Positions 9,162-34,042 of a stretch of 64,000 nucleotides of DNA are shown in pieces. Under the pieces are notes generated by a model that worked only from the letters and a program-made list of their open reading frames with translations, had not been told where the DNA came from and did no database searches. The stretch comes from Pseudovibrio sp. Alg231-02 (GTDB lineage Bacteria; Pseudomonadota; Alphaproteobacteria; Rhizobiales; Stappiaceae), in assembly GCF_900143565.1 (NCBI RefSeq), contig NZ_FREX01000006.1, forward strand, positions 1,753 to 65,752. Direction: 5' to 3'. The position numbers and the translations under genes are program-made. Within the stretch, counting starts at the first letter, position 1. Each line of letters opens with the position of its first letter.

Positions 9162-9228
9162 TCGCTTACCATGTGAAGCTGCCATTGGCGCAGCCGCGGC
9201 GAAGGTCCGATTTGCCCGCTCTGCTACC

Positions 9229-9897: not shown

Positions 9898-9919
9898 TTC
9901 ACCTTATAAATCAGGTGAA
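9898..9919. promoter_or_regulatory. Inverted repeat upstream of LuxR gene
   Basis: TTCACCT, eight bases, then AGGTGAA. It lies about 50 bp before the luxR start. Its ends (ACCT...AGGT) resemble a lux box, but the spacing is shorter than the classic 20-bp box, so binding by the LuxR protein is only a possibility. Confidence 0.35.
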
Positions 9920-9969
9920 TATTTCGTAAGGTAAGATTGTTGGAGGCATTATATGTAGGGGCGTATAAA

Positions 9970-10689
9970 ATGAACTCATTGACTGTTGCACTAGAATTTA
10001 TTGAATCTGTTAATAATGAAGAGACACCTGATCTTGTTTCTAAGTGTCTTGCTGAACTTGGTCAGTCTTTTGGCTTTACAAGTTTTTGCCTTGCTGCGAT
10101 CCCCGAAGCTAACGCATCCTTTGATGGGGCTATTATGTTGAGTGGTTGGCAGCCTGAATGGCAACAACGTTATCTCGACCGTGATTACGTACAAAACGAT
10201 CCGATTGTCGCGAAAGCGCGTACTGCTAATCGTCCATTCCTTTGGTCCAGCGTTGCTCGTGATAGCAATCTTTCTGCAGCTGCACAGCAAGTTCTGTCAG
10301 AAGCGCGCGATTACGGAATGTATGACGGAGTGTGTGTGCCAGTGCGTGGCCTGCAGAACTATCAAGGCATGCTGACTTTTGGTGGACCAGAAGTTAGACT
10401 GAATGAACGCGAAATCAGTGTTCTTCATCTGGTTGGTATTTATGCGAATAATAAAGTGCGAGAACTAGCTGGTTCAAACATCAGTCGTCCTCGTCATCGC
10501 ATTACTCCTCGTGAACTTGAGTGTCTGAAGTGGGCGGCTGCAGGCAAGACAAGTTGGGAGATCAGTCAGATCCTAAACATCTCTCAGCATACTGCGGACT
10601 GGTATCTGGCTTCGGCTGCCAGAAAGTTGCATGCTTCGAACAGAACGCACGCGGTAGCTGAGGGTTTTCGGTTCGGCCTTATTCAATAA
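9970..10689 (+). CDS. LuxR-type quorum-sensing regulator without a nearby synthase (LuxR solo), 239 aa
   Basis: The N-terminal half is an autoinducer-binding domain that keeps the acyl-homoserine-lactone pocket signature: W64-x3-Y68-x8-D77-P78 and W92. The C-terminal half is a LuxR helix-turn-helix (TPRELECLKWAAAGKTSWEISQILNISQHTADWYLASAARKLHASNRTHAVAEG). It would act as a cytoplasmic signal-dependent transcription factor. No luxI-type synthase lies in the window, so it is a solo here. The ATG at 9,970 has TAGGGG upstream; a TTG at 9,937 would add 11 residues. The upstream DNA is AT-rich and the gene stands alone between repeat-laden gaps, suggesting acquisition. Confidence 0.87.
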   Translation: MNSLTVALEFIESVNNEETPDLVSKCLAELGQSFGFTSFCLAAIPEANASFDGAIMLSGWQPEWQQRYLDRDYVQNDPIVAKARTANRPFLWSSVARDSNLSAAAQQVLSEARDYGMYDGVCVPVRGLQNYQGMLTFGGPEVRLNEREISVLHLVGIYANNKVRELAGSNISRPRHRITPRELECLKWAAAGKTSWEISQILNISQHTADWYLASAARKLHASNRTHAVAEGFRFGLIQ

Positions 10690-10925
10690 GTCTAAACGAC
10701 ACTTACTTATGCTCTCGGCAGGGTTCGCACCGCGCTTCCTGCTGTTTGCACTTTTACGGCATCCCGATTGTCCCAATTCAACCGATCTGTAAGGTGCAGC
10801 TACTCACGAGGCGATTAAGGCGTTGACTGTAAGCTTTTCTTTGAGTGCTTCGTAAGTGGCCGATGAAGGTTGTAAAGTAGCTCCCGCTGGTCGAGTTTTG
10901 TCTCCAGATCAACGTCCCCCTTGCA

Positions 10926-10964
10926 GCTGAGAAGTTTGCCGAATGTGTTGCAACGATTAGTTGA
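10926..10964 (+). pseudogene. IS30-type transposase 3' remnant
   Basis: The codons read AEKFAECVATIS-stop and match the last residues of the transposase at the left edge of the window (AEKLSQCVAATS-stop), including the following TTGA.CCCACC. Only this tail is recognisable; the rest is decayed. It marks a past IS insertion next to repeat copy C. Confidence 0.55.
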
Positions 10965-10969
10965 GCCCA

Positions 10970-11130
10970 CCAGACTTTACTTCCATTCACTGCACTGCGT
11001 GAACTGAGGTAAGTGAGAGGCTGTTGCCAGCATCATGGGCCAACAGCGGACATTCGGGCGTTTCAAGCAGTGGTTGAGCTAACTCACCCAGAAGCGTCTT
11101 TAGCTATCTTCATGAAGTGCCTGCAATTCT
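10970..11130. repeat. Dispersed intergenic repeat, copy C
   Basis: Starts GACTTTACTTCCATTC and continues CACTGCACTGCGTGAAC, GAGGTAAGTGAGAGGCTG, TTGCCAGCAT and GGGCGTTTCA, colinear with copies A (2,630) and B (6,423). It abuts the IS30 3' remnant, so the repeat may derive from DNA once linked to that IS. Confidence 0.55.
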
Positions 11131-13519: not shown

Positions 13520-14638
13520 ATGGCAATCAACGCGATGACCGTAAGCGCAGGTCGTGCACTTGAGGTACTGAAATCTGCTTGGGATATGCAGCTAAATACA
13601 GGCAAAGCTTTTTCCTGGATGATGCATGGCCCCCCCGGCGTAGGAAAAACACAGGTTGCGGAAGCGCTCGCCTGCTATGTTGGCGGTAAACTTTACGATG
13701 TGCGTTTGACCCAGATCGACACGGCTGATTTGCGCGGTTTACCCTATTATGATCACCAAAGCCGCACCACCCAGTGGTACCGCCCCGAAGATCTTCCACG
13801 CTGTGAGACCCCTGCGGTGTTGTTTCTGGACGAAATCACAGCTGCGTCCCCCTTGCTCCAACCCACAGTGTATGGTCTCTTGCAGGAACGCCGCGTTGGT
13901 GTGCATGTTATCCCAGATCAAACTTTGATAATTGCCGCTGGCAACACTGTTGATGATGGTGCCATTGCCTATGAAATGGGCTCTGCAATTTCAGATCGTC
14001 TGATTCATATGATAGTACAGGCTGAACCCGAGGACTGGTTGAAGAGCTTCGCACTTAAAAGCGGACTTCACCCGGCAGTCCCCGCCTTTATTAAATCCCG
14101 TCCCGACTTACTAGAGACCCTTTCTGCCTCTATGCAAGCAGAGCATATGATAGCCGCTACACCGCGATCTTGGGAACGTGTCAGTCATATTATGACCCAT
14201 GTTGCCGATCGGCAGAACCGTATGGTCATGGTAGCTGGTGCCGTGGGAACTGCCGTGGCGAGCGAGTTTCTTCGCGCCGCTGATGACATCGAAGCCAGCG
14301 TCACTATTGAAGCGCTTGTTGAGGCTCCCCGTAAATCCCGAGCACCTCTTTATCCCAACACCTTACACGGACTTAATGCGCTGATATTTGGATTGGTGGG
14401 CTACTTGAACGACAAAAACATCGACGCAGTGATCGAGTGCACTCTAGACATTGGTGAACTGCAAATACTGAACCCGAAATCTGTTGAGCTGAAAAAAATT
14501 CCTTTGCGGGAGATAGCAACAGCTGGATTTGAAATGATCATTGAGACTAGTCTACAGAAGGGGCTGGCCGACCATATTCTCTCAAATCCTGCTTATCATG
14601 ATCATCAAAAAAAACGTGAAGCACAAGGGTTGGCGTGA
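13520..14638 (+). CDS. MoxR-type AAA+ ATPase, 372 aa
   Basis: An AAA+ ATPase with Walker A GPPGVGKT (residues 37-44), Walker B AVLFLDEITAA (99-109) and a sensor-1 style IIAAGN segment (near 136-141), in the arrangement of MoxR proteins. MoxR ATPases work as chaperone-like remodelling machines paired with a von Willebrand factor A protein, usually the next gene, as here. It starts immediately after the upstream stop codon and overlaps or abuts the downstream gene (GTGA), so all three are one transcription and translation unit. No regulator is adjacent. Confidence 0.88.
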   Translation: MAINAMTVSAGRALEVLKSAWDMQLNTGKAFSWMMHGPPGVGKTQVAEALACYVGGKLYDVRLTQIDTADLRGLPYYDHQSRTTQWYRPEDLPRCETPAVLFLDEITAASPLLQPTVYGLLQERRVGVHVIPDQTLIIAAGNTVDDGAIAYEMGSAISDRLIHMIVQAEPEDWLKSFALKSGLHPAVPAFIKSRPDLLETLSASMQAEHMIAATPRSWERVSHIMTHVADRQNRMVMVAGAVGTAVASEFLRAADDIEASVTIEALVEAPRKSRAPLYPNTLHGLNALIFGLVGYLNDKNIDAVIECTLDIGELQILNPKSVELKKIPLREIATAGFEMIIETSLQKGLADHILSNPAYHDHQKKREAQGLA

Positions 14639-15951
14639 CAATGTCAACTTACCACTCCCAGCGCGCGACTGCTGCGCTTCAGAAGCTTATCGAGTTTGAT
14701 CCTACCTTCGGCTCCCTGTCTCTTTGGTGCTTGCACCGGGATGCCACTGCTGAAGAAACCCTCATTGTAATGCGAGATGCTCAAGGAGAAGCATCTATCG
14801 CGTCAGTCAGGTACGAAATAGCGCCAGCCTATACAGATGGCAGGGTGATCTATTATGGCTCCCAATTCGAGAGATGGAATCTCGAAGAACAAATGGCAGT
14901 GTGCGCCCATGAGATCTTGCATATCGCTTTTCAGCATATACCACGAGCACGCAAACTCTTATCGCGCTTTGGTACTCAGTATTCCCGCCAGATCTTCAAC
15001 ATTGCTGCAGATGCCCTCATTAATGAGAGTCTGACACAAGCCGGTTATCGATTACCACAGCCACATGTATCATTGAATGCTATTCTGAAGGATGTTCTCC
15101 ATTCTAATCAGAGAGCAGATGCGGCCCTAGCCACGCTGGATGTTGAAAGCCTCTATGTCCAGCTTTTTGATATTTCTGAAAAAGGAGGAAAGCAGGCACT
15201 CGCTCTCAATGTACTCTCATCCAGACTAGCTCCGGATGTTTCAGCTGATGGCAAACTTAGCGCTGAAGATGAGTTGTCCTCCGCCGAATGGCAGCAAAGA
15301 CTTGATCGTGCTCTTAGATCGGGGGCAAGTGCAGGCAGAGGTCTTGGTTCGATCAGCACTAGGTTAGGCGATATTCCGAAATCCTTTACGCCATGGGAAG
15401 TGATCTTGCGTCGCATGGTAACAAAGATGGTAACTTACATGCCTCAATATCGCTTTGAGGCACCCACAAGGAGATGGCTTGCATTAGACGCAGAAGCCCA
15501 AAAGACCGGCCATTGGTCACCAGCTTTCGAGCCAGGTAGACGTAAAGCCCTCGCCAAACGCGGAAAGGTCACTGTTTGCGTAGATGTTTCAGGCTCAATC
15601 TCGCAATCAATACTGGCACGATTTGCCAGTGAAATTGAGGGTATTTCTCGTCGTACCGGCGCTGAAATTATTCTGATCATCTTTGACCATGGTATCCAAC
15701 TGATCCATGAGCTTACAAAACACAATTTGCTTGAAGAGTTGAATGGCCTAGATTTCCATTCTGGAGGTGGCACATCCTTTAAAGAGCCGATAGAAGAAGC
15801 TCTCAAACATGATCCTTCGATCATTGTGGTTCTAACTGACCTAGTCGGTCAGTTTGGTCCTAAACCGGGACGCACTCCGGTGGTTTGGGCATGTTGTCAC
15901 GGTAATACTGAAACTGTACCATTTGGACGCGTAATTTATTTGTCTCGATAA
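14635..15951 (+). CDS. DUF2201-type protein: metallopeptidase-like domain plus VWA domain, 438 aa
   Basis: The N-terminal part has a zinc-protease signature AHEILHIAFQH (HExxH at residues 92-96), as in the putative metallopeptidase domain of the DUF2201 family. The C-terminal part is a VWA-like fold with a MIDAS start VCVDVSGSIS (D317-x-S-x-S) and a later TDLVG. MoxR ATPases commonly partner such VWA proteins. The GTG at 14,635 overlaps the MoxR stop (GTGA); an ATG at 14,641 is an alternative start two codons on. HExxH plus VWA suggests a metal-dependent, possibly proteolytic, effector controlled by the ATPase. Whether it cuts anything, and whether the 669-aa protein is its substrate, is unknown. 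Confidence 0.85.
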   Translation: MTMSTYHSQRATAALQKLIEFDPTFGSLSLWCLHRDATAEETLIVMRDAQGEASIASVRYEIAPAYTDGRVIYYGSQFERWNLEEQMAVCAHEILHIAFQHIPRARKLLSRFGTQYSRQIFNIAADALINESLTQAGYRLPQPHVSLNAILKDVLHSNQRADAALATLDVESLYVQLFDISEKGGKQALALNVLSSRLAPDVSADGKLSAEDELSSAEWQQRLDRALRSGASAGRGLGSISTRLGDIPKSFTPWEVILRRMVTKMVTYMPQYRFEAPTRRWLALDAEAQKTGHWSPAFEPGRRKALAKRGKVTVCVDVSGSISQSILARFASEIEGISRRTGAEIILIIFDHGIQLIHELTKHNLLEELNGLDFHSGGGTSFKEPIEEALKHDPSIIVVLTDLVGQFGPKPGRTPVVWACCHGNTETVPFGRVIYLSR

Positions 15952-16463
15952 AGTGGCAACAAAGATATCTCCTCTCCACTGTTTTCAATGCGCTTCTTGG
16001 TAGTTCGATCTTTCAGCAACACAACATAGTTCGCAACCGCCCGAAACGCGTTTCGTGACTTCAATAAATGGGGATTTTACGAGTAGCGACGTTACTGCAG
16101 ATCGTCCTAATTTTTTGGACGTGTTTTAGCTTTGTAAGCTTCGAACTAACACGAATGGCAGGTGAGATTGCTACGAACCAGCCTCATGTGCGGATCAACC
16201 GATCTACTCGCTAAGGTACTCAGAAGCATCTCCCAGCAGCCTACAGCAACCTATGAGTGAAACACGCGAATGTCGGGTTTTGAGCCTCTGTGTCGGTTAT
16301 GAACTGCTGTTTACCGATGTTTTCGCAGTTGCAGCGAAGGTCGGCTTTGTCTGCACTGGTGCCCCTGAGTATCTGTGTCGCAACCGGCAAGGTGTTATCA
16401 GAAGGCTCCGAAGCGAAATCGACTAGCGGTTGAGAGCAAGTTGAGAAGGCTTACAATCCATAT

Positions 16464-19519: not shown

Positions 19520-19885
19520 CATAAAGCCCTCTCTACTGGGGTGTTAAATGAACCACTCAGCAGAAGGCTTGTGACAACCCACTGGTGAGCGGGAGGTTCA
19601 CAACCTGGTAGAGTCAGGCGGGTTTATTCCCCCGCGAAGGGGTATTGTATTCACCGCCCTCCCGCCCATAAGCGAGAGTTTGCGTAAGGAGGGCTAACTC
19701 CAAACACAAATTGACCGCCGAAATAACGGCAGCGGTGACCGCTACTTGTGAGAGGTTTCGACGCCTCAAGATGACCATGCGATGATTGGCGCAAGGTGTC
19801 AATGCAAGGAAACCGAATTCCTCCACAAACCCATAGCATTAGCCGGTCATGAATGTAGAGGGTAGAAGTGCCGGTGACTTCACCT
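19520..19885. other. Gene-free stretch in the integrated element
   Basis: Two overlapping minus-strand frames (19,614-19,839) exist, but neither has a ribosome site or family resemblance. I see no other structure. Confidence 0.4.
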
Positions 19886-22104: not shown

Positions 22105-22710
22105 ATGACACTGCCATCAAAAGAGTATTTCACTTTAATTGAAGCCGGCGCGCGATGGGGAACTCCATTAGGCACCCTTGCAGGTTGGGCAGAAGTTGGC
22201 CGGTTTCGCATTGTCACCAGTACGCCGCATATCGCTTGCGGTGATCGGCGCGTTTTTGGCATGGTGGAGCTGTTTGGATCAGACCTGTTCAAGATGCTGA
22301 GCACGACAGGAAAGCGCTCCCGTTGTTGTTTGGTCCAGCGTGTGATCCCGTTTCATCAGGATTGTACTGAGCTGCTTTATGTGACCAAGCCAAAACAAGG
22401 CTTGAGGGTCCAGCCCGATGAGCTCTGGATTCCGGCGATTGATCTTTATCGCTTTGAAGAGAAATACGGCCTTGCCCAGCGTGCTAGCAAGGGGGGACGT
22501 GAGCCGAAGTATGATTGGGAAGGAATATGGGCGCCGCTTTGCGCGCATATCTTTGCTGAAGGCGTTCTCAAATCCATGCAGGACCTCGCAAATGAAGTGC
22601 AGGCCTGGTTTATTGAGGCGTCTCCAACGGGAGAGGCACCTGATATGAGTACCATCCGCCGCCGTATTCGCCCCATTTGGGAGGCACTGAAGAAGGAGCA
22701 GGAGAATTAG
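22105..22710 (+). CDS. Hypothetical element protein, 201 aa
   Basis: GGGAGGG precedes the ATG. The N-terminus (FTLIEAGARWGTPLGTLAGWAEVGRFRI) looks like a helix-turn-helix adaptor; the C-terminus (SMQDLANEVQAWFIEASPTGEAPDMSTIRRRIRPIWEALKKEQEN) resembles the tail of small proteins often placed beside integrases. It is convergent with the integrase and overlaps its last ~100 bases on the opposite strand. Function unknown; probable DNA-binding role in the element. Confidence 0.6.
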   Translation: MTLPSKEYFTLIEAGARWGTPLGTLAGWAEVGRFRIVTSTPHIACGDRRVFGMVELFGSDLFKMLSTTGKRSRCCLVQRVIPFHQDCTELLYVTKPKQGLRVQPDELWIPAIDLYRFEEKYGLAQRASKGGREPKYDWEGIWAPLCAHIFAEGVLKSMQDLANEVQAWFIEASPTGEAPDMSTIRRRIRPIWEALKKEQEN

Positions 22711-23968
22711 AGGGAGGTGCTGGTATGTTTGTGCGAGGGCTGGTGGTAACCTGCTGTGCCTGTTGGGATGGTTTTTGTCTTACGTATTCGGCCACCGCAT
22801 TAACGCTTTCACGTAATGGAGATTCCATCAGATGGGCGTAGCGCTGGGTTGTGCCCATTTGGGTGTGACCCAAGAGCCTGCCGATTACTTCCAGTGAGGC
22901 ACCACCAGAGACGAGCAGAGATGCAAACGTATGGCGTAGGTCATGAATGCGCACATCGCTGATCTCTGTTTGCTTTAAGATGCCCTGCCAATACCGACGC
23001 ATTTCATGAACGGGCTTGCCAGTCCCATCTCCCGGAAACAGCCAGGGGCAGTCCTCTGGTACAGTTGTTAACCGCCGTCTCACTAGGTCAGCCACTTCTG
23101 CGGAAATAGGCAGGCGATGGGTGCGCTTCTGTTTGGTAGTTGTGGCCCGCTTAAACCACGTGAGCAGTTCAAGATTGAAGTGTTCAAAGCGAGCATGGCG
23201 AACTTCTCCAAGGCGGGCGCCAGTTAGCAAGCACAGGCGGATTACATCTGCTCCGCGCTTGTCTTCACTGTTTTCTAGCGCTTCTGAGAGACGGTTGATC
23301 TCGTCAAAGGACAGAAACCGCTCACGGGCATTTTCAGGGCGTTTGTGAAATCCTTGAGCGGGGTTATCAGAGCGCATCTTCCATTGAACTGACAGATTAA
23401 ACATCTTGCGCAGGATCTCACCAAGCCGATTGGCGCGGATTGGTGTCGGGCAAGGGGCAGATCTGCGCAGTAGTTTCTTGGCAGGACGATGGCGTCCAGC
23501 AGCCATCTCACGCAAGAGCCTGTTGACGTCTGCTGGAGAAATCTCGCGCACCAACCGATTGCGCCACTGCGGCAGTACCAGTTTGGTCAGCATGGAAATC
23601 TGGTCAGAGCGGTTACGGGCGGCAAGCTTGGGCAGATGCTCGTCGATGTAGCGCTCAACCAAATCGCTTATGCGGGGCACAACACGTTCTGCTTCGCGGT
23701 TGCCCAGCGGGTCGCACTCCATCTCAATCTCACGGCGGATAGTTTTGGCGCGTTCGCGGGCTGCTACCACGCTCCAAGCGGGCCACATGCCAATGGTGTA
23801 ACGGCGCTGGCGGCCATTGACACGGTAGGAAAGATTGAACGCTTTGGAACCAGATTTATAGATTACCAGCGCAAAACCCAGGACCTCAGTGTCAAACAAT
23901 TGATATTGGCGCACGGTGGGTTTTGCAGCGCGTGCTATCTTTTCTGTAAGGCGTTGACGACTAGGCAC
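22610..23968 (-). CDS. Tyrosine recombinase / integrase, 452 aa
   Basis: An N-terminal DUF4102-like arm-binding part (FDTEVLGFALVIYKSGSKAFNLSYRVNGRQRRYTIG), a SAM-like core and a C-terminal catalytic domain with all key residues: R252 (TGARLGEVR), a Lys in TTKQKRTHR, H342-x2-R345 (HDLRHTF), H368 (LGHTQMG) and nucleophile Y377 (TTQRYAH). About 60 extra Pro- and Ser-rich residues follow and overlap the convergent gene. It catalyses site-specific integration and excision. Iterons lie 115-150 bp upstream of its start. Its attachment site is not visible near the gene; the tRNA-fMet half at 31,407 is a candidate. Confidence 0.9.
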   Translation of the reverse strand: MPSRQRLTEKIARAAKPTVRQYQLFDTEVLGFALVIYKSGSKAFNLSYRVNGRQRRYTIGMWPAWSVVAARERAKTIRREIEMECDPLGNREAERVVPRISDLVERYIDEHLPKLAARNRSDQISMLTKLVLPQWRNRLVREISPADVNRLLREMAAGRHRPAKKLLRRSAPCPTPIRANRLGEILRKMFNLSVQWKMRSDNPAQGFHKRPENARERFLSFDEINRLSEALENSEDKRGADVIRLCLLTGARLGEVRHARFEHFNLELLTWFKRATTTKQKRTHRLPISAEVADLVRRRLTTVPEDCPWLFPGDGTGKPVHEMRRYWQGILKQTEISDVRIHDLRHTFASLLVSGGASLEVIGRLLGHTQMGTTQRYAHLMESPLRESVNAVAEYVRQKPSQQAQQVTTSPRTNIPAPPSNSPAPSSVPPKWGEYGGGWYSYQVPLPLETPQ

Positions 23969-24260: not shown

Positions 24261-25220
24261 GTGATCAAATTGCGTCTAAAATGGCTTCGATTGCTGGCAC
24301 AAAAGCACATTGACCTTGAGATAAGTAACTCACCGAAGCTAAGGACGCGTATTGTCGAACGACCTGGTTTATGGATGACCTCCGCAGAGCTTGGGTTGTT
24401 GCGGAATGATCTTCGCTCGATCGCAGCCAAGACGTTGGCTGCTAAAGACCTTAATTATGGTGTCTTCTCTGCAGACTTGAGTGTTTTTGAACATTTGGTC
24501 ATAACGGTTGTCTACCGAATAGAAGACCATCGGCCCATTGCCTTTAACGCCTTAAGGCTAATGCCCTGCGATTTAGGAGCTGAGAAGCATGAGGTCCTGC
24601 ATCTTGGATTGGTTATGGTCGACCCCGACGAGCGCAGCCACGGACTATCATGGGTGCTTTATGGGCTAACTTGCTTTCTTCTATTTTTGCGAAACCAGTT
24701 CCGTCCCCTATGGGTTTCAAATGTCACACAGGTACCAGCCGTTGTTGGTATGGTGTCTACAACGTTTTCAAAGGTCTATCCAAATCCTGCACGAAAGACC
24801 CGTCAAAGCCTGAAGCATCTTTTACTGGGCAGGGCAGTCATGAAACACTATCGCTATGCTTTTGGTGTTGATAATGAAGCAGGCTTTGATGAAATGCGGT
24901 CTGTGATTACCGACGCCTATAAAGGTGGGTCAGATAATCTCAAAAAGAGATTTGAAGAGGCTGCACCTCATCGTGATCCTATATTCAATGTCTACTGCCA
25001 GACGACACTGGACTATGAGCGCGGCGATGATGTCCTGCAGTTGGGCAAGATTGATCTGGCTGCAGCTCAGAGCTATCTCCGGCATCAGGTTCCACGTAAG
25101 TCTTTGCGCTCTCTGCTTACGGCAGTTGGTTTTATCTTGTTACAACGGCTTTTTTTGCCTGTGTTTCACTGGTTTGATACTGCGCGTAGCTGGAAGACAT
25201 TAAGGCCTTTTGAGAGATGA
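24261..25220 (+). CDS. GNAT-like protein, first gene of ThiF/nitroreductase operon, 319 aa
   Basis: A central segment (HLGLVMVDPDERSHGLSWVLYGLTCFLLFL, residues ~115-145) resembles the acetyl-CoA binding strand-loop-helix of GNAT acyltransferases, with a weak V-x-P-x2-R-x2-G pattern. The C-terminus has a hydrophobic stretch (LLTAVGFILLQRLFLPVFHWF) that may touch the membrane. The start is GTG with no clear ribosome site. The end overlaps the ThiF gene by 4 bp (ATGA). I do not recognise a named family. The role is inferred from the operon: an acyl transfer step working with the adenylating enzyme downstream. Confidence 0.6.
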   Translation: MIKLRLKWLRLLAQKHIDLEISNSPKLRTRIVERPGLWMTSAELGLLRNDLRSIAAKTLAAKDLNYGVFSADLSVFEHLVITVVYRIEDHRPIAFNALRLMPCDLGAEKHEVLHLGLVMVDPDERSHGLSWVLYGLTCFLLFLRNQFRPLWVSNVTQVPAVVGMVSTTFSKVYPNPARKTRQSLKHLLLGRAVMKHYRYAFGVDNEAGFDEMRSVITDAYKGGSDNLKKRFEEAAPHRDPIFNVYCQTTLDYERGDDVLQLGKIDLAAAQSYLRHQVPRKSLRSLLTAVGFILLQRLFLPVFHWFDTARSWKTLRPFER

Positions 25221-26095
25221 GTTTACCCTTTTCCTATGATGAATTCACAGGTCGAAACATCGGTTTCCTTACCCCTGATCAGCAAGAGAAATTAGCTAAT
25301 GCAACCGTTTTTGTTTGCGGTACAGGAGGTATGGGCGGGGCCTGCATCATGTCGCTGGTTCGGGCCGGGGTTGGCAGGCTTATCATTGCTGATCTGGATG
25401 GTTTTGAAGTTTCCAACCTGAACAGGCAGCTGTTTGCAACGCTGGATACCATTGACCAGCACAAGGCCGAGGCAACCAAAGAAGCCTGTCTGAAGATCAA
25501 TCCACAGGTCAGGGTCGATATCCATCGCGAAGATTGGCCAGAGCATATCGATAGTATCATGCACAGTTGTGATGTGGCTGTTAATGGTTGTGATGATCTC
25601 GGCGGCTCGCTCCTACTTTATCGAAGTGCTCGCAACCACGGCAAAACCGTGATTGATGCTTATGCGTCCCCGCTGCCTTCTGTTTATGTCACAGCACCCA
25701 AAGACCCGATGCCGGAAGAGCGGTTGGACTATCCAACCATTGGGACTGACTGGAATGACTTGACTGATGAGCAGCGAACCCTGTCTTTTCTGCGAGAGGC
25801 AGAGCATATTGTTTTGCACTCTTCTTCCCGCAACTATGTTGATGTGAAAATGGCTGGCGAAGTTGCTTCCGGCAAACGCAGCCGCATGTCGTTTGCTCCT
25901 ATGGTTATTACCACTGGCATGCTGATGAGCTACGAGGTCTTCGCTGTGCTTTTGGGACAGGTCAGTTCAACGGGTTGCAGAGGTTATTTTTTCAATCCTT
26001 ACAGGGCACGTGTTGAGCATCCAAAACCCATTTGGCAAACCATATTCCTTAGGCCTTTAGTCCGCCGTTTCCTAACAAAGATGCAGGGGACCTAA
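25217..26095 (+). CDS. ThiF/MoeB-family E1-like adenylating enzyme, 292 aa
   Basis: A Rossmann ATP-binding start VFVCGTGGMGGACIMSLVRAGVGRLIIADLDGFEVSNLNRQ, with the D-x3-x2-NLNRQ signature of ThiF/MoeB/E1 enzymes, and a later NGCDDLGGSLLLYRSA region. The CxxC zinc pairs of MoeB and ThiF are not present and there is no obvious catalytic Cys, so it may adenylate a carboxyl group without making a thioester. It overlaps the upstream gene by ATGA and ends one base before the membrane-protein gene. ThiF domains joined to nitroreductase domains are known in single proteins such as mycobacterial Rv1355c; here they are separate genes of one operon. The substrate is unknown. Confidence 0.8.
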   Translation: MSLPFSYDEFTGRNIGFLTPDQQEKLANATVFVCGTGGMGGACIMSLVRAGVGRLIIADLDGFEVSNLNRQLFATLDTIDQHKAEATKEACLKINPQVRVDIHREDWPEHIDSIMHSCDVAVNGCDDLGGSLLLYRSARNHGKTVIDAYASPLPSVYVTAPKDPMPEERLDYPTIGTDWNDLTDEQRTLSFLREAEHIVLHSSSRNYVDVKMAGEVASGKRSRMSFAPMVITTGMLMSYEVFAVLLGQVSSTGCRGYFFNPYRARVEHPKPIWQTIFLRPLVRRFLTKMQGT

Positions 26096-26096
26096 C

Positions 26097-27305
26097 ATGC
26101 CTCCGGCCAACCTTCTCGTCGACAGCGTGATATCGATCTCTGCCTTTTTCGGGGCATTTGTGGTGATCATCGTATTGAAACCGCGTGGTGCCCAGGACTA
26201 TCTTGTGAGCCGTTTTTTGTTTGTGCTCTATCTGGTTGCCGGACTCATGCTTGTGCGTACAATCGACTGGTATACGGGGAGTGCTTTTTTCAAAGTTGCA
26301 ACACTGATTTTGGCGAGCCTTATTCCATTAAGTATCTTGCTACTTACAGAAGCTCTGTTGCGGCGACACGCACCTCTCTGGAGCAAATGGGTGACAGCTT
26401 CAGGGACTGCCCTATTGCTCATTCTCTCAGTTTTTTCGCAGACATTTGTTGGGCCTGTGTCCACTATTGCACTGTTCACGTTTCAGGCTTATGCGTTTGG
26501 CCTTGCTGCTTATCTCATTGTAACGCGTGACAAAGCTTCTTTAACGGCAGAAGAAAACAAGACCATCTCGCGCTTTGCTTTGGCTTTGGTTCTTATCCTT
26601 CCTTTGCTGATAACGGACTTCCCCCAGCTAAGTTCGCTGTTTCCTGCAAGGCTTGCGGGCATCGCTGTGCTTTTCAGCTGTTGGTTGGTCATGAATTTAA
26701 GACGGTCACAGTTCATCCGTTGTGATGCAGTGATCACCTTCGGGGTGACTTTAGCAATAACGTTCGGCGTCACTTGGTGTCTCGGTCAGGTGCTTCCACT
26801 TGATGCAAGAACACAGATGCAAGTGGCAAGCATGCTACTTGCCTTCCTGATGCTCTTTACCCTGTTGCTGGAAGCATACTGGTCGTGGACAAATAAGCGA
26901 AACCATGGGTTATTGCATCATGTGGTTGGAGGTTCGATCGCGAGCCTGGACAGCTTTTTGCGTTTCAAGCAGGACAATTCTCTATTGGGAAATGCCTTGG
27001 TATTGCAGCCGTCAGACCTTGGTGACTTCGATCTGGATTTTCTACGGGAGCTGTTTAGCAATAGCCCAGTCTTACGCAGGCCGGATAACACAACTGATGC
27101 CGAGCTGTCAGAGCGGGCCAAAGAACAGATGGACTGGCTCTTCAAGAAGTACGACGCCACCCATATCCTGCTGGTTGGAGAGAACCCATTGCGGTTGCTT
27201 GCTCTAAGCCTGCCTCAGATTACCAATTCTTCGGGTGGAGAGTTGGAGTTTGAGGTGTTCCAGCGAACGGCCTACCTGATTTCTCAAAGTGAAAATGTGA
27301 AATGA
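26097..27305 (+). CDS. Polytopic membrane protein with cytoplasmic C-terminal domain, 402 aa
   Basis: Residues 1-265 hold about eight hydrophobic helices (for example VISISAFFGAFVVIIVL, VATLILASLIPLSILLL, ALALVLILPLLITDFP, MLLAFLMLFTLLLEAYW). They are followed by a ~135-residue soluble part (HHVVGGSIASLDSFLRF... KKYDATHILLVGENPLRLLALSLPQI). The layout recalls membrane sensor proteins with an N-terminal multi-helix input, but no kinase or cyclase motif is seen. The next gene overlaps by ATGA. It may anchor the soluble enzymes of the operon at the membrane or export their product; this is inference. Confidence 0.75.
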   Translation: MPPANLLVDSVISISAFFGAFVVIIVLKPRGAQDYLVSRFLFVLYLVAGLMLVRTIDWYTGSAFFKVATLILASLIPLSILLLTEALLRRHAPLWSKWVTASGTALLLILSVFSQTFVGPVSTIALFTFQAYAFGLAAYLIVTRDKASLTAEENKTISRFALALVLILPLLITDFPQLSSLFPARLAGIAVLFSCWLVMNLRRSQFIRCDAVITFGVTLAITFGVTWCLGQVLPLDARTQMQVASMLLAFLMLFTLLLEAYWSWTNKRNHGLLHHVVGGSIASLDSFLRFKQDNSLLGNALVLQPSDLGDFDLDFLRELFSNSPVLRRPDNTTDAELSERAKEQMDWLFKKYDATHILLVGENPLRLLALSLPQITNSSGGELEFEVFQRTAYLISQSENVK

Positions 27306-28411
27306 TAGAGATTGTTGAGCGTAATCTGCGCTCGTTTTACGAAGTTCCCTTTAATGCGTATGCCGCTTGCAATCCCTACGTCTCACCTATGAAGAGCGAT
27401 ATCCATCGCTTTCTGTCAGTAGACCAAAACCCGCTGTTCGAAAGCGAGAATGATTTCACGTTTTTCACAGCGATTAAAGATGGGCAGCCCATAGGCCGGA
27501 TTACAGCGCATATCCACCGTGCCTCGCACGCTCTGCACGATCCTGATTTGGCCTATTTCGGCTTTTTCGATACGGTCAATGACAGCGATATCGCAGATCA
27601 GTTGCTTTTCAGAGCAGAAAATTGGGCCCGCGGCAGGGGCTTAAAGCGTATTTGTGGCAACTTTAATCTGACAGCCATGCAGCAGATTGGCGTGCAAACA
27701 CAAGGTTTTGGTAACGCTCCTTACACTGACATGATCTGCGGTCCCTCTTATCTCCCAGATTTGCTTGAGGAAAACGGATATAATCGCACCTTTCCCATGA
27801 GTACGTTTGAGCTCGACCTCACTGCCATTGAGGAGGCCCAAATGGGAAGTGCCGAAAAGCAGCAGGCGTTATTGGAGCAAGGTTTTCAGTTTGTCCCGAT
27901 AACACGTCGCCATCTGACAGAGCGGCTGGAAGAGGCGCGGCAGATACTAAATGAGAGCTTTGCCGATAACCCGATGTTCGTGCCGGTAACAGCAGAAGAG
28001 TTTCAGTTTCAGGCCAAAGAGATGAAGTGGATTATTGATCCAAGAATTTCCTGCTTGCTGCATTACAAGGGCGCGCTTGCAGGTGTTGTGATTGCTATTC
28101 CTGACCTTAATCCGTTCCTAAAAGATACAAAGTCGCGATTTGGCTGGTCTACACCGTGGCATTTTCTCATGCATCGGATGAAGCGTAAGCGCGCTATCGT
28201 TATCTTGCAGGGCGTCCTTCCCCGTTTTCAAAGCATGGGCGTAAACCCGATGATGCTGGCGCATGTCATGACGCAAATGAAACGGGCAGGGTATGAGCGT
28301 GCCGGCGGCACATGGATCTCAGAAAGCAATCATGCCAGTTTGCGACAGGTGGAAAAAGCTGGTGGGCAGCCACTTCACGGTCTGCACCTGTTTCAGAAAG
28401 AGCTGATTTAG
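27302..28411 (+). CDS. GNAT-superfamily-like protein, 369 aa
   Basis: Two GNAT-like segments can be seen. The N-terminal half has FFTAIKDGQPIGRITAHIHRA, FGFFDTVNDSDIADQLLFRAENWARGRGLKRICG and then NLTAMQQIGVQTQGF. The C-terminal half has CLLHYKGALAGVVIAIPDLN and VLPRFQSMGVNPMMLAHVMTQMKRAGYERAGGTWISESNHASLRQVEKAGG, the last being typical of the GNAT helix and final strands (ExNxxxxxxxEKxGG). It starts within the stop of the membrane-protein gene (ATGA) and its stop directly abuts the nitroreductase ATG. Probably an acyl- or aminoacyl-transferase; donor and acceptor are unknown. Confidence 0.65.
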   Translation: MIEIVERNLRSFYEVPFNAYAACNPYVSPMKSDIHRFLSVDQNPLFESENDFTFFTAIKDGQPIGRITAHIHRASHALHDPDLAYFGFFDTVNDSDIADQLLFRAENWARGRGLKRICGNFNLTAMQQIGVQTQGFGNAPYTDMICGPSYLPDLLEENGYNRTFPMSTFELDLTAIEEAQMGSAEKQQALLEQGFQFVPITRRHLTERLEEARQILNESFADNPMFVPVTAEEFQFQAKEMKWIIDPRISCLLHYKGALAGVVIAIPDLNPFLKDTKSRFGWSTPWHFLMHRMKRKRAIVILQGVLPRFQSMGVNPMMLAHVMTQMKRAGYERAGGTWISESNHASLRQVEKAGGQPLHGLHLFQKELI

Positions 28412-29425
28412 ATGGAACATATTCTCACCGCAGATCAGTTCAAGGAGCTGGTTCTACAAGCAAACCTCGCACCTTCCGTTCATAACGTGCAGCCCGCCCG
28501 CTGGCGGCGTGCTCCCGGAGGTCGCATTGAAGTCATCGCTGATCTCACGCGTGCACTCCCTGCGGCTGACCCGCATAATCAGGATGTTGCGCTGTCTTGC
28601 GGCTGCGCCATTGAAGGTATGTTGATAGCGCTTTCTGCAATCGGCTTAGCTGGATGCGTTGAGAATATGGCCAATCTCTCCGCAGAACGTGGTGACCTAG
28701 CTCCTGTGGTGGCGACAATCAAAATAGTGCAGGGCGGGCGTGACTCATTATATCCTTTTATGGCGCAGCGCTACACATGGCGTAGTGCGTTTCAACCCTC
28801 ACAACCCACTGAGTTGGACGCCTTGCAAAGCTGGGACCACAGGGTATCAGACGCAACTGTAACCACGGACCCGAGCGCAATTGCTATGCTTTCAGTTCTG
28901 AATGATAAGGCCAGCCTGCGCTTCATGAGTGAGCCGCGGTATCGTGCCGAGCTGGTCAGCTGGATGCGTTTGCAGAAGCGTCATTCTCGGTATGCGCTGG
29001 ATGGAATGAACCTTGAAGCCCTGCATATGAGCGTGTTTGAGGGGATTGGCGCTGGGCTGGTGCTAAGCCCTTCTGTCTTCCCGTTTCTGCGTCGCCTTGG
29101 GCTTGCTTCAGGCATTGTGAGCGAAGACAAGAAAACTACTAGCGTCAGCGCCATTGCTCTTTTTCACCGGCCGAGAGAAGAAAACCGCATAGTCTCAGGG
29201 CGTGCGTTTTATCGGTTCTGGTTGAAGATAACCGAGTTGGGCTTTACGGGTTGGCCCATGGCAGCGCTTGCGGATGATGAGGCCACCAATCAAACCTGCT
29301 GCAAACACTTTGGCATTCCTGAGGATCACCAGTTCATCAATGCAATGCGATTAGGCAAGGTCTTTGAGCAACCACAGGTTCGGGCTCGCATTCCGGCAGA
29401 GCACCTCATATGGGAGAGCGAGTAA
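28412..29425 (+). CDS. Nitroreductase-family (Acg-like) flavoprotein, 337 aa
   Basis: The N-terminal LVLQANLAPSVHNVQPARWR is the FMN-binding start of nitroreductase-fold proteins of the Acg/ThiF-linked branch (APSxHNxQPxxW), followed by SCGCAIEGMLIALSAIGLAG in the usual position. The protein is longer than simple nitroreductases, consistent with a fold with two half domains. It would catalyse an FMN-dependent redox step. It follows the GNAT-like gene without a gap and closes the five-gene operon. The pairing with a ThiF enzyme mirrors natural ThiF-nitroreductase fusions. Confidence 0.75.
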   Translation: MEHILTADQFKELVLQANLAPSVHNVQPARWRRAPGGRIEVIADLTRALPAADPHNQDVALSCGCAIEGMLIALSAIGLAGCVENMANLSAERGDLAPVVATIKIVQGGRDSLYPFMAQRYTWRSAFQPSQPTELDALQSWDHRVSDATVTTDPSAIAMLSVLNDKASLRFMSEPRYRAELVSWMRLQKRHSRYALDGMNLEALHMSVFEGIGAGLVLSPSVFPFLRRLGLASGIVSEDKKTTSVSAIALFHRPREENRIVSGRAFYRFWLKITELGFTGWPMAALADDEATNQTCCKHFGIPEDHQFINAMRLGKVFEQPQVRARIPAEHLIWESE

Positions 29426-29476: not shown

Positions 29477-29773
29477 TTATTCTGCGATAGCGCTGCCGCC
29501 ATCCGGGCGATTGATATCGAGCAACAGCTTTTCAGTCTTCGCATCTTCTACTTTGCGGATAAGCCGCTTGGCTTCAGCATTGTCACGCAGTGTTTTGGTC
29601 AGATTAACTGTGGTCTGCAGCAGCATCACCAAACCCATAGCAAGGTAGGCTTTGACCCAGATATCAATCTCAGAAAAGATGATACCCGCAGCTGTCATGC
29701 CCAAGGCGACTGCAAAGCTGAAGTAAGAAAAATTGATCCACATTGGAGTATGTTGATTGAAATTCTCGTTCAT
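29477..29773 (-). CDS. YiaA/YiaB-family inner-membrane protein, 98 aa
   Basis: Two transmembrane helices (WINFSYFSFAVALGMTAAGIIF and VKAYLAMGLVMLLQTTVNLTKTLRDN) match the YiaAB two-helix domain, followed by a charged cytoplasmic tail. It lies 45 bp downstream of the PspA-like gene in the same direction, so the two are probably one operon that responds to membrane stress. It is convergent with the nitroreductase operon. The role is not known in detail for the family. Confidence 0.8.
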   Translation of the reverse strand: MNENFNQHTPMWINFSYFSFAVALGMTAAGIIFSEIDIWVKAYLAMGLVMLLQTTVNLTKTLRDNAEAKRLIRKVEDAKTEKLLLDINRPDGGSAIAE

Positions 29774-29818: not shown

Positions 29819-30508
29819 TTAAATATCTGTCTGCTTGGTTCTGGCGCGCAGGCGCTCCAATACATCCTGACCTGAGGTTTTCAAAGCAACGCCACATCCC
29901 GCAGCCGCAAGTTTCTCGGTGACATATTCCGGGCTACCTTTTTCTTCCAGGTCCTTCATCGCTTTTAGTGTGTGGTCTACATGGGATTGCCGCTCTTGCA
30001 GGCGTTTCAGCGTGGCAGTTGCATCAACCAGACTGGATGTATCGCCCTCTGGCAGCTTGTGATGCAGCTTTTGTGCGCTGTCTTTAACCTGTGCAATGCG
30101 CTGGCCTTGCTGAAGGGTGCGAAGCTGAGCCTCGGCAGCATGTAATTGCTTGCGCAGGTCCTTGATCTGCTGATCAAATTCACCAAGCAGATCATGAGAC
30201 TGCTTCTTCTCATCCTCCAGAATGGCGATGCTTTCTGCACCTTCCTGAGCCAGTGTATCCTTGCCCTTTTCAAGAGCCGTTACCACCCGTTCTTCCAGAC
30301 CGCCAATCTTACTGGCGAGGCCTTGATGGCGTTTGCTTTCCGTATTCGCCTGTGCCATCGCCAGTGCCAGCGCTTTACGCATGGTCTCAACTTCCGTTAC
30401 CGCCTCTTTAATCTGCTGGCGCAAAAGCAAAAGCGCGTGCTGGTCCATAAAGTCTTCACTGCGCTTGTTAGCTGAGCCACGGATTAATGTCATAACTTGC
30501 TTGAACAT
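29819..30508 (-). CDS. PspA/IM30-family membrane-stress protein, 229 aa
   Basis: A long coiled-coil protein (residues ~30-170, for example RQQIKEAVTEVETMRKALALAMAQANTESKRHQ and EFDQQIKDLRKQLHAAEAQLRTL) with the FKQVMTLIRGSANKRSEDFMD start of PspA-like proteins, which polymerise on damaged inner membranes. The ATG at 30,508 has GGAGAGG upstream; the frame to 30,532 lacks one. It shares a promoter region with the divergent TetR gene. That region holds three TGAAC-N3-GTTCA operators, two of them within 65 bp of this start, so it is probably repressed by TetR. The YiaAB gene follows. Confidence 0.82.
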   Translation of the reverse strand: MFKQVMTLIRGSANKRSEDFMDQHALLLLRQQIKEAVTEVETMRKALALAMAQANTESKRHQGLASKIGGLEERVVTALEKGKDTLAQEGAESIAILEDEKKQSHDLLGEFDQQIKDLRKQLHAAEAQLRTLQQGQRIAQVKDSAQKLHHKLPEGDTSSLVDATATLKRLQERQSHVDHTLKAMKDLEEKGSPEYVTEKLAAAGCGVALKTSGQDVLERLRARTKQTDI

Positions 30509-30525
30509 TTCGCCTCTCCGTAATA

Positions 30526-30594
30526 TGAACATTGTTCATGATTTGAAAATACACGAAAATGAACGTTGTTCAAGTAAAAAATGAACGCTGTTCA
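30526..30594. promoter_or_regulatory. Three tandem palindromic operators (TGAACNNTGTTCA)
   Basis: TGAACATTGTTCA (30,526-30,538), TGAACGTTGTTCA (30,560-30,572) and TGAACGCTGTTCA (30,582-30,594) all follow the inverted repeat TGAAC-N3-GTTCA. They fill the gap between the divergent pspA-like and tetR genes; the third ends 18 bp before the TetR start. Size, symmetry and position are those of TetR-family operators. Confidence 0.8.
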
Positions 30595-30611: not shown

Positions 30612-31211
30612 ATGATAGGAAAGCGGGAAGCCAAGAAAGCAGCCATGAGAGAGAAGCTGCTTTCAATCACGCGCCAGCACGTGGTTCAGCATGGCCTGGC
30701 CAATATTCGTGCGCGCGATATTACCGCAGAAGCTGGTTGTGCACTCGGCTCTCTTTATACTGCATTCGATGATCTGGACGACTTGATTATTCAGGTAAAC
30801 TCACAAACATTACAAGAGCTTGGCGAGCGGATAACGCAAAGCGTTCAAGCAAAGGACACTCCTGCTGATGTACTTGTCACCGCCGCAGTTGCCTATATGG
30901 AATTCGCCTACGAGAACAGAAATCTCTGGGAAGCTTTGTTCGACCATAAAATGAAGGAAGGCATACCAGTTCCAGAATGGCATTTACAGGAGCATCTGGT
31001 GCTCTTCAAGAACATTGCTGAGCCCCTTGGAGTATTGCGTTCTGACTTGCCCCCGGAGGAACTTGCCACGCAGGCTAAGACTTTATTTGCGGCAATCCAT
31101 GGGAATGTTCTGCTTAGCGTGCAGGGCCGGTTCATTGCCGTTGAGAAAGAGGCCCTCAAACTCCAGATTGTGAATCTGACGCAGATAATTATTAAGGGCA
31201 TGACAAGATAG
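30612..31211 (+). CDS. TetR-family transcriptional repressor, 199 aa
   Basis: An N-terminal TetR helix-turn-helix (LLSITRQHVVQHGLANIRARDITAEAGCALGSLYTAFDDLDDLIIQVNSQTLQEL) and a C-terminal ligand domain of the WHG type (NLWEALFDHKMKEGIPVPEWHL). The ATG has a GAGAGG ribosome site. It is divergent from the PspA/YiaAB pair with three matching palindromes between them, so it most likely represses both itself and that pair until a ligand binds. The ligand is unknown. Confidence 0.88.
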   Translation: MIGKREAKKAAMREKLLSITRQHVVQHGLANIRARDITAEAGCALGSLYTAFDDLDDLIIQVNSQTLQELGERITQSVQAKDTPADVLVTAAVAYMEFAYENRNLWEALFDHKMKEGIPVPEWHLQEHLVLFKNIAEPLGVLRSDLPPEELATQAKTLFAAIHGNVLLSVQGRFIAVEKEALKLQIVNLTQIIIKGMTR

Positions 31212-31406: not shown

Positions 31407-31454
31407 AGGCTCATAACCTGAAGGTCGTAGGTTCAAATCCTACCCCCGCAACCA
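31407..31454 (+). tRNA. 3' half of initiator tRNA-fMet, likely attachment-site scar
   Basis: Starting inside the anticodon stem, the sequence reads AGG-CTCATAA-CCT (CAT anticodon), variable region, T-arm GTAGG-TTCAAAT-CCTAC, then CCCCGCA-A-CCA. The A at position 72 is the initiator-specific C1-A72 mismatch base. The 5' half (acceptor strand, D-arm) is missing; upstream bases are unrelated AT-rich DNA. The tRNA's terminator is still present. Integrative elements using tRNA 3' ends leave this kind of duplication, so the sequence to the left is probably island DNA. It is not a functional tRNA. Confidence 0.82.
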
Positions 31455-33062: not shown

Positions 33063-33118
33063 GAGGCGCTCTTTTGGCTTTATTGATGCGCGCGTGCACA
33101 TTCAGTGATCGATGCGTT

Positions 33119-33449
33119 AGAGCGCGTTCCGTTTGATTGCATTCAATCAGACGACAAGAATTCGCTCCACCAAAGATGCTAGAGCGCGATGCGTAAATGA
33201 AAATGAACGCAACGTGCTCTAGCTTTTACAGTCAGCTTCATCAATCTAACTCACCATGTCCTTGACTATTATTAAGTGCATTCTGCATTTATAGCATGCT
33301 CTCGAAAAGCGGGTCCGGTTTTCGGGTGAGAATATGCCTGGTCTAGAGCGTGTTCCCGAAAAGTGGTTCCGGTTTTTGGATAAGAATACGCGCGAAATTA
33401 AAGAGTTAGAGCTTGGTGCGTGAATGCATATGAACGCAACATGCTCTAA
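33119..33449. repeat. Cluster of REP-like palindromic elements
   Basis: Two elements of the form AGAGC...GCGT-loop-ACGC...GCTCT (33,180-33,221 and 33,405-33,449) and two of the GAAAAG-x-GG-x2-CCGGTTTT type (33,303-33,330 and 33,357-33,385). The CCGGTTTTCGG type recurs at 36,190-36,240. Such elements are scattered between genes in Rhizobiales-related genomes. Confidence 0.6.
33262..33275. promoter_or_regulatory. FNR/NNR-type box upstream of nnrS
   Basis: TTGACTATTATTAA fits TTGAC-N4-RTCAA with one mismatch. It lies ~200 bp before the nnrS start and has the same core as sites near nirS (40,021) and the cupredoxin (about 36,146). It would place nnrS under low-oxygen or NO control. Confidence 0.5.
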
Positions 33450-34042
33450 TGAGAGGAGAGTGTCTCGATACGCCAGCTCGTCCAGGATATCTCTTAGCTG
33501 GCTTATGGCCATACAAGCACTGAAACCACCACATGGCATCCCATGCAGTGTTGAACCAGAATTCCCGGAAGTCGGGATGAGCAAGGCGGTAGGCAATACC
33601 TGCGCTACTTGTTTAAAAATGTTTCTTCAGCATTGGCTACACGCCTTGCCCGGGCTTTCTTATAATGAACTACGTCGCCTCTTTTGCCTATAAGGCACGA
33701 TAGCCGGTTTCCCGGAAAGAAAGTGGCTTATCCAGACACGTTTCCATGCCCAAACAGTTCCTCCGTCTTTGACAAACACATCTGCAAAAGCAGGTTTTAC
33801 TGCCGGTACGTCTGCATCCGTCACCGCGTGATACCCTATAGTCCTGGGCCCTTCCCCTCAAACCATGCGGTCACGTTTGAAGTTCGGTTCACCGGACCAC
33901 TGAAAGGTGCGTTACGTCTTCCAACAGCCCAACCCAACCTACGACAAACTGACGGTCGCTCCGCCAGCAGCCCGTTACGTAGGCATAGGTTCAGAGTATG
34001 GGAGGAAAACACGAGGGGGATAAGTTTACCCTTAAAACCAGT

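Follow-up and report, generated by a model that had tools for sequence, protein, structure and literature searches.

A five-gene operon of Pseudovibrio sp. Alg231-02 joining GNAT-fold, ThiF-like and Acg-like proteins to a receptor-like membrane protein, a candidate fatty amino-acid pathway

What might be made, and for what partner, by an operon that encodes a ThiF-like adenylating enzyme, two proteins of GNAT type, a polytopic membrane protein and a flavin oxidoreductase side by side in Pseudovibrio sp. Alg231-02? The window analysed here is the whole stretch of 64,000 nucleotides from contig NZ_FREX01000006.1 in which these five genes (A to E) lie, and they are listed together with their neighbours in Table 1. 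The preliminary description of this DNA had five plus-strand genes joined by ATGA overlaps or gaps of 0-1 bp, and the reading-frame coordinates bear this out: A and B, and likewise C and D, overlap by 4 bp each, B and C are separated by 1 bp, and D and E abut with a 0-bp gap. Both GNAT-like proteins also stand, D through Pfam and A through its predicted fold. Predicted promoters and terminators inside the operon were not above those of shuffled sequences, and the region 5′ of A contains short repeats only. Searches of one open-access library listed no paper that describes the five-gene operon.

Table 1. Features of the operon and its surroundings, in window coordinates.
Feature	Coordinates	Strand	Description
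Tyrosine integrase	22610..23968	-	Arm-DNA-bind_3 domain; family match
Gene A	24261..25220	+	GTG start, 319 aa; hydrophobic C-terminal helix; GNAT fold, family without a name; proposed amino-acid N-acyltransferase
Gene B	25217..26095	+	292 aa; ThiF-like adenylating enzyme, proposed cyclase
Gene C	26097..27305	+	402 aa; polytopic membrane protein, GPCR-like helix bundle and cytosolic C-terminal domain; proposed receptor/membrane partner
Gene D	27302..28411	+	369 aa; GNAT acyltransferase (PF00583); optional in other lineages
Gene E	28412..29425	+	337 aa; Acg-like FMN oxidoreductase, proposed desaturase
yiaAB-like gene	29477..29773	-	Two-helix membrane protein; PF05360
pspA/IM30-like gene	29819..30532	-	Family match
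TetR-family regulator	30612..31211	+	Divergent from pspA; family match
tRNA-Met(CAT) 3′ end	31408..31454	+	Attachment scar, island right end; exact copy

Related loci numbered 116, of which 80 were studied. The same five-gene order, for which a search of genome neighbourhoods had been suggested, is found in 28 of the 80, a count that includes one locus (L038) with mere remnants of B, D and E; sixteen loci have A-B-C-E, and 30 have A-C alone. The full order is also present in one other genome of the genus, with protein identities of 57-77%, and this recurrence argues that the order is not due to chance. C adjoins A in 79 of the 80 loci, the exception (L100) being interrupted by a contig end, and A and C are joined by an ATGA overlap in 26 of the 32 A-C and A-C-E loci. 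A and C are the core of the operon, and B, D and E come and go: the tree of A requires at least nine changes for B and at least eight each for D and E, and a B ortholog is absent from 17 of the 18 genomes with an A-C locus. The dispensability of B, D and E in other lineages is unlike the picture in the preliminary description, which had treated all five genes as one unit not expected to occur singly in unrelated contexts. That expectation holds for the core, as among the 80 loci A is found without C nowhere save at the contig end; diverged relatives of D (24-30%) do occur in six loci that have none of the other four genes.

Gene A has no Pfam or NCBIfam match up to E = 1, and its profile found nothing meaningful among the sequences of solved structures. 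Its predicted structure is a GNAT fold (Z 11.1, with 158 residues aligned with GCN5), and its family retains H114 throughout (83/83) and a GNAT-loop-like pattern in 67 of 83 members; from this modelled fold and its gene partners we propose A as a candidate amino-acid N-acyltransferase. Assignment to the FeeM family (PF21926) was not supported, since none of 29 A proteins matches the FeeM profile up to E = 5 and profile comparison gave E 0.19, and a relation to OlsB-like proteins was undetectable by sequence, the alignments used for comparison being small (3 and 5 rows). Genuine FeeM matches do occur elsewhere in the same genome (two, at 107.5 and 79.7 bits). D is a GNAT protein (PF00583, 33.4 bits), and comparison of A with D gave no support for their being related duplicates. 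FeeM and the AHL synthases have GNAT-type folds, and TyzA has been likened to both (PMC10404671); neither is among the 50 structural matches listed for A, an absence that does not imply exclusion.

B is a member of the ThiF family (PF00899, 117.5 bits). Zinc CxxC motifs, the feature by which a sulfur-transfer E1 of the ThiF or MoeB kind was judged and which would have counted against the earlier description, are present in 0 of 46 proteins of the B family. No Cys is invariant, and C34, which lies in a glycine-rich loop and is kept in 44/46 proteins, is probably structural rather than catalytic. D126 is found in all 46 and aligns with the Asp of the TDN of ThiF; an Asp of TrzS, picked by similarity to the ATP-binding residue of ThiF, is essential (PMC12856293). 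As a ThiF-family protein with this invariant residue, B carries the adenylation Asp that characterises the oxz, tyz and trz cyclases. Scored with the B profile, ThiF proteins retrieved with the PRK14851 ThiF-nitroreductase model reach 94-118 bits and other ThiF-like proteins 68-92 bits; the profile also finds ubiquitin-type E1 enzymes and the MccB protein. This last result would suit an alternative in which B, as a genuine E1-like enzyme, activates a small protein or peptide and the operon serves protein modification or yields a peptide; we consider that most improbable, given the cysteine pattern of B and because no candidate ubiquitin-like or precursor-peptide gene was noticed among the listed frames of at least 60 aa between 22 and 31 kb.

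E is a nitroreductase (PF00881, 36.7 bits) and, judged by sequence comparison, an Acg-type flavin oxidoreductase. It scores 149.2 bits with the NCBIfam Rv3131/Acg family, under the cut-off of 199, versus 62 bits with the Rv1355c model, and its profile finds the Acg structure 2ymv (E 7.7e-19); for TrzS, Acg has been given as the nearest relative of solved structure (PMC12856293). B matches the Rv1355c/TrzS model at 91-223 and E at 372-652, in the same order, with no full-length match of B or E above the cut-off of that model, and known models cover B over its first half only. Rv1355c-type fusions above the family cut-off were found in 0 of 142 genomes of the class, and PRK14851-type proteins above cut-off in 0 of 398 genomes of the phylum. 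With regard to the FDO-A subgroup, E belongs to the nitroreductase superfamily and is Acg-related, yet it lies nearer the Acg-like oxidases than those associated with PRK14851, its profile giving 85-221 bits with Acg-like proteins of other genomes versus 41-71 bits with nitroreductases beside or fused to PRK14851-type ThiF proteins. Rv3131 itself has been assigned to a subgroup that is not considered to produce oxazolones (PMC10404671).

The position of E, together with the lack of FeeM likeness in A, would also fit a different product, with A, B and E acting on something other than an amino acid to build another kind of lipid, such as an acyl-amino-alcohol or an altered phospholipid headgroup, and the two acyltransferases working one after the other. 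Two loci are in keeping with this: in L018 diverged D relatives lie near an aminotransferase and a gene with an acyl-transferase domain, and in L044 an MFS/acyltransferase/AMP-binding fusion adjoins the operon. We regard such a product as distinctly unlikely, because among the proteins scored the B profile is nearest to the PRK14851-model ThiF proteins, and because the characterised pairs of ThiF and nitroreductase-superfamily proteins act on N-acyl amino acids (PMC10404671; PMC12856293).

The window's C has no Pfam or NCBIfam match up to E = 1 and no recognised output domain, and C is labelled a hypothetical protein in three annotated plasmid records. Its model (pLDDT 90.6) has about nine membrane helices and, from about residue 284, a cytosolic domain, which is conserved. 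Each of the 50 matches listed by the VIA structure search (Z 14.1-16.8) is either a receptor with seven helices or a designed receptor-like fold, and a Foldseek search gave nothing significant (best E 0.021). No convincing match to a transporter or PrsK-like family was seen among 41 C proteins, six of which match 7TMR-DISM (PF07695) weakly (best E 4.3e-4), the window's C not being one of them. The membrane component proposed earlier is borne out, and its predicted fold looks receptor-like rather than transporter-like, so that C would be a receptor or membrane partner for a lipid rather than a pump; the lack of a significant Foldseek match and of a recognised output domain weighs against a receptor.

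The genes for PspA, YiaAB and a TetR regulator, which the preliminary description did not take into account, are part of a conserved neighbourhood, being found near the operon in 19 of the 80 loci; RoxA-like cytochromes are nearby in 14, and in L044 the fusion noted above is adjacent. This recurrence of membrane and lipid genes is in keeping with the lipid pathway proposed below. PspA and YiaAB also bear on an unlikely alternative, in which C exports or flips the product of a cluster for a lipid antibiotic or surfactant and these two proteins give self-protection. Their presence nearby, the many membrane helices of C encoded amid enzyme genes, and the occurrence of acyl-tryptophans mainly in the culture supernatant (PMC12856293) all agree with export; the lack of a convincing transporter-family match across the 41 C proteins, the receptor-like nature of all of the structural matches listed, and the conserved cytosolic domain argue against it.

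The operon lies between an integrase and a tRNA attachment scar, and had been described as probable island cargo. The scar is real: 2 kb right of E, past three further genes, the 3′-terminal sequence of tRNA-Met(CAT) is repeated exactly. An island is also favoured by the integrase, by what is probably the empty site in a relative, and by scarcity within the genus (D is present in 2 of 16 genomes), but the left junction of the island was not found. The 64,000-nt window has no second copy of the tRNA-Met 3′ end, there is no tRNA at the contig start, and GC content across the operon, at 0.45-0.53 per kb, is unremarkable.

In our view the probable product of the operon is a fatty amino-acid compound, and we give a slightly better than even chance to a pathway of acyl-oxazolone-like or dehydro-acyl-amino-acid type that is linked to a membrane protein with receptor-like features. 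The earlier outline—acyl transfer, adenylation, flavin redox and a membrane part yielding a small modified molecule—fits, and the characterised ThiF/nitroreductase pairs make it more precise. From its fold and gene partners, A would acylate an amino acid with a fatty chain; B, by homology, would activate the carboxylate with ATP and carry out ring closure in the manner of TyzB and TrzS, and E, again by homology, would desaturate the amino-acid part using FMN and O2, so that either an acyl-oxazolone or a dehydroamino acid with an N-acyl group would result. D might add a second acyl group or acylate another acceptor. C, which stays next to A in loci lacking B, D and E, would by its fold be a receptor or membrane partner for the lipid, and PspA and YiaAB may relieve membrane stress, perhaps with the divergent TetR as their regulator. 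Counting against this pathway are the undetected sequence relation of A to FeeM or OlsB-like proteins in the small alignments compared, the higher scores of E with Acg-like proteins and the Rv3131 model, and the confinement of the model matches of B to its first half. A bolder reading, which we think unlikely, is that A and C are a new signal synthase/receptor pair with translationally coupled genes, in which A makes an N-acyl amino acid signal, the GPCR-like C senses it, and B, E and D, as optional tailoring enzymes, create signal dialects such as acyl-oxazolones.

The physiological role of acyl-oxazolones has been called a major unresolved question (PMC12856293). The operon, whose carriers include Ensifer adhaerens and Ruegeria, sets similar chemistry beside a membrane protein with receptor-like features in both rhizobia and marine Rhodobacterales. 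Lineages that keep A-C but have no B, D or E amount to deletion experiments done by nature, which makes this question testable. The proposed pathway would also offer a candidate function for two protein families, A and C, that have no Pfam or NCBIfam name.

Several known systems resemble parts of the operon. As modelled, C is like the 7TMR-DISM receptors (PF07695) in having a helix bundle and a cytosolic part, but the window's C lacks both a PF07695 match and a known output domain. In trzAS of mycolic-acid bacteria, TrzA and the Rv1355c-type ThiF-oxidase fusion TrzS produce acyl-tryptazolones, and the cyclisation and desaturation of N-acyl-tryptophan to an oxazolone by TrzS has been demonstrated; as in our operon, where the acyltransferase is a proposed one, an acyltransferase, a ThiF domain and a flavin oxidase are encoded together, with B and E matching the parts of the Rv1355c model in order, whereas the operon has three separate genes, and the parts of the paper covered give no counterpart of C or D (PMC12856293). 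Oxazolones are destroyed by acid and by methanol (PMC12856293). The oxzAB genes of Pseudoalteromonas rubra likewise combine an acyltransferase with ThiF-oxidase chemistry, but OxzB is a fusion, and no membrane gene is mentioned where they are discussed in the text covered from PMC10404671 and PMC12856293. The tyzACB genes (tyrazolones) encode a separate ThiF protein (TyzB) and oxidase (TyzC) and the acyltransferase TyzA, although the gene order differs and TyzA, of 322 aa, is FeeM/AHL-synthase-like by fold (PMC10404671). A trio of synthase, ThiF and nitroreductase also accompanies the N-acyl dehydrotyrosine producers Stieleria, Thalassotalea and Massilia, the three genes lying close together, and overlapping or less than 10 bp apart in the latter two, but the text covered makes no mention of C or D (PMC12479983). 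Against these systems, an A that is not FeeM-like by sequence and an E nearer to other flavin oxidases set the operon apart as a variant within a known kind of pathway.

The five open reading frames of the operon, encoding A (GNAT-fold protein), B (ThiF-like), C (polytopic membrane protein), D (GNAT) and E (Acg-like flavin oxidoreductase), were confirmed by ORF listing at the positions in the preliminary description. Genes A/B and C/D overlap by 4 bp, B and C are separated by 1 bp, and D and E adjoin without a gap. Pfam and NCBIfam place B in ThiF, D in GNAT and E in the nitroreductase superfamily, with Acg/Rv3131 the best-scoring family for E; A and C have no match in either collection.

A survey of 84,980 species (one genome each), scanned with a four-sequence A profile, gave 116 confirmed loci. 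The 80 best were retained, and their gene content was determined by tblastn with the five proteins as queries, counting hits within 6.5 kb. Among these, 30 are A-C, 28 A-B-C-D-E, 16 A-B-C-E and two A-C-E; A-B-C, E-A-C, D-E-A-B-C and A alone are represented once each. The five-gene order, for which a genome-neighbourhood search had been proposed, thus recurs in 28 of the best 80 loci, a count that takes in L038, with only remnants of B, D and E, and two loci with some split hits (L040 and L061). The lone A lies at the end of its contig (L100), and in the E-A-C locus (L068) E lies 6.5 kb off and matches only distantly (28%). Alphaproteobacteria account for 75 of the 80 loci, chiefly Hyphomicrobiales and Rhodobacterales, to which L100, a Rhodobacterales bin, is added; Lysobacter, Cupriavidus, Thermoanaerobaculia and Gemmatimonadia have one locus apiece, those of the last two coming from metagenome bins in which mis-binning is possible. 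The A family is rare: A is present in 3 of 385 genomes of the class, and its profile matches 8 of 398 genomes of the phylum. The C profile matches 4 of 199 genomes of the order, all four of which have A, and D is present in 2 of 16 genomes of the genus. The second of these (G010) has all five genes in the same order (57–77% identity) at a different place, adjoining a frame judged by eye to be transposase-like and two M16-peptidase-domain genes.

Across 83 A proteins, a quick tree requires at least nine changes in the presence of B, and at least eight each for D and E; leaving out the long-branched L024 reduces those of B to eight. Since five-gene operons (L097, L103 and the rearranged L099) branch early, repeated loss of B, D and E is the simpler reading, on a drawing that is midpoint-rooted only. 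Genes A and C share an ATGA overlap in 26 of the 32 A-C and A-C-E loci, the exceptions being L094 (−11) and five loci with gaps of 31–105 bp. The B profile was run against 18 genomes with an A-C locus (those of 16 of the 30 A-C loci, G370, and G312, whose contig and that of L084 appear to be one and the same), completeness being stated for only two. In one of them a B ortholog lies at another location (512 bits); in the other 17 the B-profile matches do not exceed 84 bits and are read as other ThiF/MoeB-like proteins.

All three of yiaAB, pspA and tetR are present in 19 of the 80 loci, and one other locus has only tetR; in L040 and L043, yiaAB and pspA are weaker matches (27–31%) in different orientation. 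Three loci (L026, L044 and L055) carry a gene of 1132–1217 aa between E and yiaAB; in L044 it has MFS, acyltransferase and AMP-binding domains, resembling LplT-Aas. RoxA-like diheme cytochrome genes, identified by Pfam in ten cases and only by blastp grouping in four, are found in 14 of the 80 loci, exclusively in five-gene operons (L027, L030, L031, L033, L035, L037, L052, L057, L061, L076, L080, L087, L102 and L103). They mostly adjoin E but are more distant in L035 and L052, and that of L102 is upstream. Thirteen of the 28 five-gene loci have psp/tetR genes (12 all three), 14 have the cytochrome, none has both and L097 has neither, these absences being provisional, since flanks never exceed 10 kb and not all contigs reach that far.

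The operon had been proposed as island cargo between an integrase and a tRNA scar. The scar holds: its 47 bp are identical to the 3′ end of tRNA-Met(CAT) genes present in this genome. In the relative G009, an intact tRNA-Met gene lies 0.2 kb from the counterpart of the gene following the scar (78% DNA identity), a likely empty site. The right end of the island is therefore at 31454; yiaAB, pspA and tetR are inside it, and the operon probably is too. The left end was not found: the 64-kb window has no second copy of the tRNA end, and the contig's first 1.9 kb, whose frames look transposase-like by eye, has no tRNA.

Features of the window and, where a locus is named, of other stretches
Feature	Position	Strand	Remarks
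LuxR-type regulator	9937-10689		autoinducer-binding domain; 14 kb from operon
Three adjacent genes	11510-15951		669-aa protein without Pfam match, AAA ATPase, 438-aa protein
sRNA-Xcc1 near-threshold match	19580-19666	−	52.6 bits; gathering score 53
Operon A–E	24261-29425	+	
tRNA-Met(CAT) scar	31408-31454		
Two weak BASRCI27-like matches	33111-33497	+	
Dispersed repeat	33114-33199		recurs at many places in the genus
Lnb_N-domain gene, L104 (Sulfitobacter)	15077-16120		between E and yiaAB-pspA-tetR
Second ThiF gene with divergent FeeM-type gene, L137 (G000:C5)	8651-11091		same genome as the window

The structure prediction suggested earlier for A gave a GNAT fold (four sequences; pLDDT 74.8, pTM 0.77), borne out by alignment with human GCN5 (Z 11.1, 158 residues at an rmsd of 3.1). 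The stretch LGLVMVDPDERSHG looks like the pyrophosphate loop of GNAT enzymes, and 67 of 83 A proteins fit a loose pattern for it; H114, G116, L117, L133 and Y134 are invariant in all 83. Acetyltransf_1 (Pfam) matches 7 of 29 A members weakly (best E 0.024), and FeeM none of the 29. From the fold, a hydrophobic C-terminal helix and the gene partners, we infer that A acylates an amino acid. Protein D is a GNAT, with Acetyltransf_1 in 18 of 19 members. Six diverged relatives (24–30%) occur in five genomes, in stretches that lack all of A, B, C and E. The L018 relative has an aminotransferase, an ABC transporter and an acyl-transferase-domain gene in its vicinity, the L017 relative a nucleotidyltransferase; these surroundings may be akin to bacterial sphingolipid clusters.

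The model of C (41 sequences; pLDDT 90.6, pTM 0.85) has nine helices and a cytosolic alpha/beta domain from about residue 284. The 50 matches that VIA lists all fall on seven-helix receptors or a designed receptor-like fold, over about 200 aligned residues and at Z 14.1–16.8, values only somewhat higher than the typical best Z of 14 for five mostly helical test models, and for helical bundles a Z below about 13 means little. Foldseek returned nothing under 0.001 (best 0.021), and 7TMR-DISM matches 6 of 41 C members weakly. A receptor-like C is a lead, not a proof.

A profile built from 20 B proteins recovers E. coli ThiF (1.2e-22, residues 20–150). R13, K83 and D126 are invariant in the 20; in a wider set R13 and D126 are present in 46 of 46 and C34 in 44, and CxxC in none. 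Scored with a B profile, ThiF proteins retrieved by the PRK14851 model, a number of which have a nitroreductase adjacent or fused, reach 94–118 bits, and other ThiF-like proteins 68–92 bits. Elsewhere in the genome that carries the window, another ThiF gene, scoring 312.9 bits to PRK14851, is oriented divergently to a true FeeM-type gene (107.5 bits) and may mark a second acyl-amino-acid locus; a further FeeM match lies at G000:C8.

TyzA (PMC10404671) and TrzA (PMC12856293) are described as acylating aromatic amino acids, followed by cyclisation with ATP and desaturation with O2 by TyzB with TyzC and by TrzS, respectively; N-acyl dehydrotyrosine producers have synthase, ThiF and nitroreductase genes together (PMC12479983). 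The parts of these three accounts that were consulted describe no counterpart of C or D. The E profile finds Acg (2ymv) at 7.7e-19 and scores 85–221 bits against Acg-like proteins of other genomes, as against 41–71 bits for nitroreductases accompanying PRK14851-type ThiF, which suggests that E may belong to another flavin-oxidase branch than TyzC and TrzS and runs against our hypothesis. In outline, the operon would work like the tyz, trz and N-acyl dehydrotyrosine systems. Strict membership in them is at most tentative, A belonging to another, or an undetectably distant, family from their synthases and E possibly to another oxidase branch.
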